From Candidatus Mediterraneibacter vanvlietii (GTDB taxonomy: Bacteria; Bacillota; Clostridia; Lachnospirales; Lachnospiraceae): a stretch of 64,000 nucleotides of DNA. Made by a program: the position numbers and the translations under genes. Shown here in pieces: positions 1-55,000 of this stretch. Position 1 is the first letter of the stretch. The number at the start of each line of letters is the position of its first letter. Where the stretch lies: contig DXGZ01000127.1 in assembly GCA_019113645.1 (NCBI GenBank), positions 1 to 64,000 of the forward strand, written 5' to 3'. The notes beneath the pieces were generated by a model that saw nothing but the letters and a program-made list of their open reading frames with translations, was not told where the DNA came from and did not search any database.

Positions 1-189
1 TTGAGCGAATGCGAGTTGCTCACCGTCTGTCCCTGTTTTTAGTCCGTCCCCGGAACTCCTTAGTTTCTCTTAGCTCCTGGAGCGGAAGCCGAGCACACTC
101 TCCACCCTTGCAGAATACGTTTTAGAATGCCTCCCTGTTTTCCGAAATATCGTCTCAAAAGTCAGCGGACCTAAGCAACTAAATAGCGG
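1..189. repeat. Copy A (clipped by window edge) of a long inverted-repeat intergenic element
   Basis: gagcgaatgcgagttgctcaccgtctgtccctgtttttagtccgt.cccggaact matches copy B (~21750-21815) and copy C (~54820-54875); right arm only is in the window. Confidence 0.85.
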
Positions 190-21497: not shown

Positions 21498-21541
21498 ACA
21501 GGGGCCGATGTGATCTCATATGAAATTACATCGGCCCCTGT
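21498..21541. terminator. Terminator-like hairpin after the glucosidase operon
   Basis: ACAGGGGCCGATGT ... ACATCGGCCCCTGT, 14 bp perfect stem. Confidence 0.85.
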
Positions 21542-21585
21542 GTTTATTAACAGTTGCCACGTTCGCACACTTCTGAGGTTTTCTA

Positions 21586-21928
21586 CAGCTATATTGTTAT
21601 TAACTTCCCATTTGTATAAAATAGAAAACAGACTCTATTTCAAGAAACTTTTCTGCGGAGATGGAGGATGTGGGCGGGGTGACTTCGAAGGGAAAGTAGT
21701 GAAACTTGAAGTTCCGTGTACGGACGTTGGGGCAGACGGTGAGATTGTCTGAGCGAATGCGAGTTGCTCACCGTCTGTCCCTGTTTTTAGTCCGTGCCCG
21801 GAACTTTTTAGTTTCATTATTTCCCGGAGCGGAACTCCGAACATATCCTCCATCTCTGCAGAATATATCTTGAAAAACATCTCTGTTTTCGTACGTTCAG
21901 CCAATGAAGATAGGGAACAAAACAGCGG
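21586..21928. repeat. Copy B (complete) of the long inverted-repeat intergenic element
   Basis: Arms: GCGGAGATGGAGGATGTG/CATATCCTCCATCTCTGC; AAGTTCCG/CGGAACTT; GGCAGACGGTGAG/CTCACCGTCTGTCC. Confidence 0.88.
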
Positions 21929-54035: not shown

Positions 54036-54288
54036 AGAAAAGCCTCCTTTTTAATTGTGGTGCAAAGAGGCTGTTTCATCCGATGCTTTTCCACTTAGCC
54101 ATTGCCTGTCCGCATCTGAAAAACCTCTCTGCTTTTGTTGATTGGGAATAAAAGCATTGAGATTTTCCTGAATGTGATTAGAACTTTTGATGGGCTAATT
54201 GCCTTTTGAGAATAAAAACATGCTGGAAATGATTAATGCTTTACGAGTATCTTAGCACAAAAAGGGCTGTAATACCAGAAAAATATGC

Positions 54289-54461
54289 AGCTATTTAGTT
54301 AATCAGGTTCGCTGACTTTTAGAGGCAATATTTCCGAAAACAGGAGAGCATTTTAAGACGTATTCTGCGGAGCCGGAGGGTATGTTCAGGGCTCCGCTCC
54401 AGGGCCTAAGTGAATCTAAAAAGTTCCGGGCATGGACTAAATGCAAGGACAGCCGGCGCTC
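54289..54461. repeat. Copy D: half element in opposite orientation
   Basis: CTATTTAGTT..TCAGGTTCGCTGACTTTT...ATATTTCCGAAAACAGG..GCATTTTAAGACGTATTCTGC matches the reverse complement of copy A right arm. Confidence 0.82.
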
Positions 54462-54577
54462 ATTATACTTCACAAAAACGAGGAATCAAGGTCGGGTAGT
54501 ATTTCCTTCGGAAATCTCCACCCTTCCCCTGACTCCTCATTTTTGTTCTGAGACGCTTTCAATAATGCTCCGGGAAT
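54452..54577. repeat. Additional imperfect inverted repeat adjoining copy D
   Basis: CCGGCGCTCATTATACTTCACAAAAACGAGGAATCAAGG vs right arm CTGACTCCTCATTTTTGTTCTGAGACGC..CAATAATGCTCCGG. Confidence 0.65.
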
Positions 54578-54660
54578 AAATACACATTGCCCGTGCAAAA
54601 CGGCGCGTCTTGAAGACCTTATTATTTGTAAAACCTTCCGGCCGCGCCTTTGTTTTCTTC

Positions 54661-55000
54661 AGGCTGTTTATTCATTAACTTCCCCTCTGAAGCGACCAGA
54701 AAACAGCCCCATTTCAAAATACTTTCTGCGGGGAGGGAGACTGTGGACGGTTGACTTCGGAGGGGGATTAGGCAAACTTGGAGTTCCGGGGAGGGACGTT
54801 GAGGCAGGCGGTGAGATTGTTTGAGCGTAGCGAGTTGCTCACCGACTGTCTCTGCTTTTAGTCCGTCCCCGGAACTCCTTAGTTTCCCTTATCCCCTGGA
54901 GCGGAAGCCGCCCACAATCCCCCTCCCAGCAGAATACGTCTTGTAAATCCACTCTGTTTTCGTCCGATTTGAAACCGGTAATTATTGATCTAAACAGCGG
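54661..55000. repeat. Copy C (complete) of the long inverted-repeat intergenic element
   Basis: CTGCGGGGAGGGAG...CTCCCAGCAG; AAACTTGGAGTTCCGGGG.../CCCCGGAACTCCTTAGTTT; GGCAGGCGGTGAG/CTCACCGACTGTC. Confidence 0.88.

Follow-up and report, generated by a model that had tools for sequence, protein, structure and literature searches.

Hairpin elements in the window and their anatomy

The window, the whole 64,000-nt stretch of DNA that was analyzed, corresponds to bases 1-64000 of a contig labelled C134 in our report. Between convergent amylase and exonuclease genes lies copy B (21586..21928, plus strand), a complete, lone right-hand unit of 343 bp with the ends CAGCTATATTG...CAAAACAGCGG. As an alignment with 30 copies shows, B lacks both the upstream GGCGCGGC hairpin and the left hairpin. 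Its conserved core (21705..21810, plus strand), supported by covariation and by a match to our R1 covariance model (113.6 bits), consists of two stems, one about 16 bp and the other about 15 bp long, together with conserved bulges. It includes the apex TGTCTGAGCGAATGCGAGTT (21746..21765, plus strand), whose columns are the most strongly conserved ones when 31 sequences from many genera are aligned. The apex loop types of the copies were tallied. A strong, separate hairpin (21499-21550; ACAGGGGCCGATGT...ACATCGGCCCCTGT followed by GTTTATT) is located after the amylase gene and just before B, and by its sequence looks like the amylase gene's own terminator.

A second, composite element of 713 bp is found at 54288..55000 (plus strand), as judged from its ends and from alignment with full-length copies. 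Its left end is CAGCTATTTAGTT and its right end the related CTAAACAGCGG. The left part, copy D (54288..54461, minus strand), is an inverted left half-hairpin without the apex, identified by alignment and by a minus-strand BLAST match (54335-54456), and the right part, copy C (54660..55000, plus strand), is a right hairpin unit with a core match at 54777-54881 (102.3 bits with R1). A preliminary description of this DNA had listed C and D as two separate copies; both are indeed repeats, but they belong to one composite in which D is inverted. The middle of the composite is rearranged relative to full-length copies. It contains a GC-rich, terminator-like hairpin, GGCGCGTCTTGAAG...CCTTCCGGCCGCGCC followed by TTTGTTTTC (54602..54648, plus strand), which recurs in full-length copies, has a related form in genome G012, and may represent an intrinsic terminator carried by the element. 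Copy A (1..189, plus strand) is the right part of an element, with an R1 match at 1-62 that is cut on its 5' side and a right end at 177-187. It had correctly been described as clipped, and the cause is that base 1 of the contig lies inside the element.

The full-length copies L024, L026 and L027 are 776-779 bp long and are arranged as terminal repeat, inverted left hairpin, middle GGCGCGGC...GCCGCGCC hairpin, right hairpin and terminal repeat. Their left hairpin is a paralogue of the right one that has diverged and lies in inverted orientation, and shorter forms with the same ends (196-341 bp) are also present. The right end AACWAAATAGC and the left end GCTATWTWGTT together occur 107 times in the genome that contains the window (G000), as compared with 4 occurrences for a reversed control. 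With this end pattern in G000 and GTWACNGTTC ends in genome G119, the elements carry terminal inverted repeats as MITEs do. The ends found here are CAGC..GCGG rather than TTTAT, and in some copies the right end reads GCGTC.

The preliminary description had counted four copies, A to D. The family stands, but the count does not: the element core gives 117 covariance-model matches in the own Mediterraneibacter genome (3.2 Mb in 144 contigs), and BLAST with copy B as the query finds 51 places there. About 38 of the 117 model matches begin within roughly 440 bp of the first base of a contig, and thus the repeat probably fragments the draft assembly of its own genome, with copy A as an example; the family appears to break draft assemblies.

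Conservation of the fold

As had been proposed, B and C each fold end to end as one imperfect hairpin, B with −161.6 kcal/mol (z −12.5) and C with −155.1 kcal/mol (z −8.0), and no dinucleotide shuffle folds as well as either of them. The compensatory arm differences between copies noted earlier are present and hold over many copies: in a 16-sequence alignment, 32 of 35 pairs show compensatory changes on both sides, and 94.8% of cells are paired, as compared with 65.9% after shuffling. No shuffle reaches any of these measures, and sliding the partner by 1-3 columns brings pairing down to 38-48%. The sequences were aligned plainly with MAFFT, without fitting to the fold, but as RNAalifold obtained the structure from this same alignment, the slide control is biased in its favor.

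Left hairpins, right hairpins and the hairpins of other Mediterraneibacter species have the apex GATTGTCTGAGCGAANGCGAGTTGC and the bulges CTTA/TTAG and GTTA/TTTGCNTTTAG in common, and their stems are almost wholly different. An apex pattern TGTYTGA-GCGNAGC-GAGTT recurs together with the same bulges in all relatives, and the arms pair in all of them. Shape rather than sequence is thus what relatives preserve. The covariation, which lies far above the shuffled and slid controls and extends across paralogues and across genera with fully replaced stems, supports the earlier suggestion that the fold may be maintained by selection.

In a pattern scan, close relatives of the element were found in uncultured Mediterraneibacter. 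Relatives with wholly different stems are present in other Mediterraneibacter species, other Lachnospiraceae and a few other Bacillota. Model matches are present in 33 of 299 Lachnospiraceae genomes, and nine of the matched genomes, when searched again with more candidates scored, contain 2-24 matches each. At the level of the order, 26 of 392 genomes contain the exact apex pattern, and at that of the phylum 14 of 399 do; none of the genomes with this pattern contains a match to its reversal. One copy of the element in genome G326 has a short, almost perfect palindrome (AAGGCATTTTAGTAAAGCGTCAAGGCATTTTCGAAAATGCC...) nearby, at L116:1-64. Viral contigs with the 19-nt apex were considered as carriers, but only a minority of them contain the full hairpin; many come from a few phages, are nearly identical to one another and lack it, and a bare 19-mer can therefore not be counted as an element. 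In viral contigs L242, L256, L268, L270 and L275, the apex is found without the hairpin and closes a conserved stretch, GCGCCAGTG..., beyond which the contigs differ from one another; an unrelated phage gene may have a coding or recombination boundary here. A phage or plasmid origin was discarded, as blastn returned no match.

Traces of mobility

Flanking direct repeats of 7-10 bp are present at six of six copies in G119 (e.g. CTGACGGG, AGCGGAGC and ATACACTC), where randomly paired flanks reach a repeat score of at most 6. Such repeats are absent outside G119 except for one 7-bp case. Target duplications are thus essentially restricted to G119, and one mobilization mechanism does not cover all lineages. 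Direct duplications combined with inverted ends are the mark of DDE-type transposition as known from insertion sequences, and for the G119 copies they indicate this type of transposition. In the genome of a sibling species (G046), the amylase (93.7% amino acid identity) and exonuclease (85.3%) genes are 79 nt apart rather than 465 nt as here, and the B locus is empty. The joined flanks, CTA followed by TTAT, match without a duplication, in a join that rests on few bases. A second empty site was sought for the D and C composite, whose left gene is not syntenic in the relatives read.

No transposase partner with the same ends was seen in the stretches read; draft contigs break at the element. 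IS66, suggested as a partner by 8-bp duplications and GTAA ends, was rejected because its ends do not match. The L119 region of G119 (L204, L205, L206) contains three near-identical IS-like elements of about 1.9 kb with the ends TGGTAGTGTCAAA...TTTGACACTATC, which are unrelated to the hairpin family.

A non-autonomous element had been among the options of the preliminary description, and it is supported by the G119 duplications, the empty B site and the terminal inverted repeats. Together with more than 100 dispersed copies, and with compensated stems that surround fixed loops and a fixed apex, these findings lead us to regard the hairpins as probably, though by no means certainly, palindromic mobile elements of a non-autonomous kind that depend on their folded form to spread or persist. 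One strand, the one bearing TGTYTGAGCGNAGCGAGTT, would be the folded molecule, either as a transcript or as single-stranded DNA, and its apex and bulges may be bound by a putative protein without which the element could not move or the hairpin would not be tolerated. Well-folded sources would give rise to new copies and old copies would decay through single-arm changes, and the mobilizing enzyme may differ between lineages. A wider proposal, which we put forward tentatively and consider rather doubtful, is that of a Bacillota-wide class of mobile elements recognized by shape: long imperfect hairpins with a fixed code of bulges and apex, for which a dedicated enzyme would use the folded single strand as the template, leaving the stems free to drift and passing on the fold.

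Alternative explanations and known repeat families

Compensation could also arise without selection, if template switching in replication copied one arm onto the other and thereby corrected the palindrome. The outer arms would suit such a process: in genomes G586 and G119 the outer stem is specific to each copy and near-perfectly paired with its own partner, with a mean within-copy complementarity (conserved loops scored as mismatches) of 0.885 and 0.837, respectively, as compared with cross-copy medians of 0.63 and 0.64. Correction should however erase conserved mismatches and asymmetric bulges, both of which persist across genera. Young pairs of copies in G000 (<6% divergence) moreover differ by 188 one-sided and only 6 two-sided changes, and the latter are not in excess of the 4.7 expected by chance. 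We thus find palindrome correction quite improbable as the source of the compensation; the one-sided changes fit a decay of inserted copies combined with selection on source copies. A bidirectional transcription terminator family, another earlier suggestion, would account for the position of B between convergent genes, and the middle GGCGCGGC module, followed by TTTGTTTTC, may on its own qualify as an intrinsic terminator. Yet the T-run expected of an intrinsic terminator does not follow the main hairpins inspected, termination does not need conserved internal loops, and copies are found inside operons such as accC-accDA and hypF-hypD. Neighbors of copies include genes for tyrosyl-tRNA synthetase, HypF/HypD, acetyl-CoA carboxylase, polyphosphate kinase, GerA, glycosidases, a chaperonin and Mur ligase. 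This diversity, together with the intra-operon copies, speaks against a terminator, which we consider very improbable, and equally against a gene-specific switch; a gene-specific riboregulator was dropped because the neighboring genes have no common function. The first 20 loci strongly suggested that copies have a fixed orientation at the 3' ends of genes, but the bias weakened to 33 versus 19 when more loci were added.

The selected role of the fold could lie in a host function rather than in mobility. Hairpins in untranslated regions and operon spacers might serve as host-beneficial, cis-acting RNAs that alter mRNA processing or stability, in which case their spread would be incidental. The copies do adjoin gene ends and also lie within operons, and Bacillus cereus is known to have MITE-like bcr repeats that are transcribed (PMC3446304). 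Isolated helix mismatches are more often G.T (107) than A.C (50), in a scoring that does not favor wobble pairs and on copies that are related. Equal counts would be expected if both strands mattered equally, and the excess thus suggests that one strand matters, as RNA or as single-stranded DNA; as the copies are related, this is a lead rather than proof. Against a cis-acting role stand the lack of a common function among neighboring genes and a copy number that ranges from 2 to >100 between genomes, with many genomes having none, and we judge it unlikely. As one form of the mobile-element reading, a recombinase or HUH-type enzyme could read a bulged single-stranded DNA hairpin, much as integron integrases do with attC sites. 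In attC sites, the fold and the extrahelical bases are conserved and the stem sequence is free, and the same is true for our hairpins, which are however much longer and were not seen in a cassette array or an integron context. The G.T share in mid and outer stems is low (2-4%), and a GC-GNA-GC mini-hairpin is observed at the apex, although the pattern used to retrieve the loci of G586, G402 and G891 already contains it; both features would suit DNA, neither being decisive. The empty B site without a duplication also agrees with single-stranded propagation. The 7-10-bp duplications in G119, in contrast, suit a double-strand DDE mechanism, and no fixed insertion target was seen, so that propagation through a single-stranded DNA hairpin appears distinctly unlikely to us.

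The preliminary description did not recognize a named family, and no Rfam family was matched: in the window and 13 related loci, no curated gathering threshold was passed except by an unrelated tRNA, and below threshold only generic microRNA hairpins appeared. The apex sequence was not found in the literature searched, which consisted mostly of non-subscription papers, and an earlier description elsewhere is possible; the same literature yielded nothing on the motif or on such repeats in Lachnospiraceae. Our best reading is thus a structure-dependent, non-autonomous palindromic element that behaves like MITE, ERIC or bcr1 repeats and was not found in the resources searched. It would represent a gut repeat family of Lachnospiraceae, absent from Rfam and from the papers searched, whose relationship across genera shows only in the fold. 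Should it be the fold that is mobilized, the copies would form a natural data set for covariation in mobile hairpins and offer a clear route to the enzyme reading them.

We compared the elements to other structured bacterial repeats. The bcr1-bcr3 repeats, of which bcr1 reaches up to 130 copies per genome in the Bacillus cereus group, are likewise intergenic, high in copy number, mobile, structured and without coding capacity (PMC6542083). By description they are set apart by their association with TTTAT motifs and their restriction to one species group, whereas the element described here is longer and conserved across genera by fold, not by sequence. ERIC, RUP, NEMIS and EFAR repeats share with it the lack of coding sequence, terminal inverted repeats, a location beside genes and strong folds. 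The length of such bacterial MITEs is given as 70-300 bp (PMC3733652), whereas here units of about 340 bp and composites of about 777 bp are found, with two inverted hairpins and copy-specific arms. REP/BIME sequences with GTAG or CGTC tags are also palindromic, intergenic and often paired in opposite orientation, and the GCGTC right ends mentioned above resemble them. REPs are however palindromes of 20-40 bp with stems of 5-13 bp and an unpaired tag at one end, whereas our units measure about 220-340 bp and show GCGTC in some copies only, at the right end.
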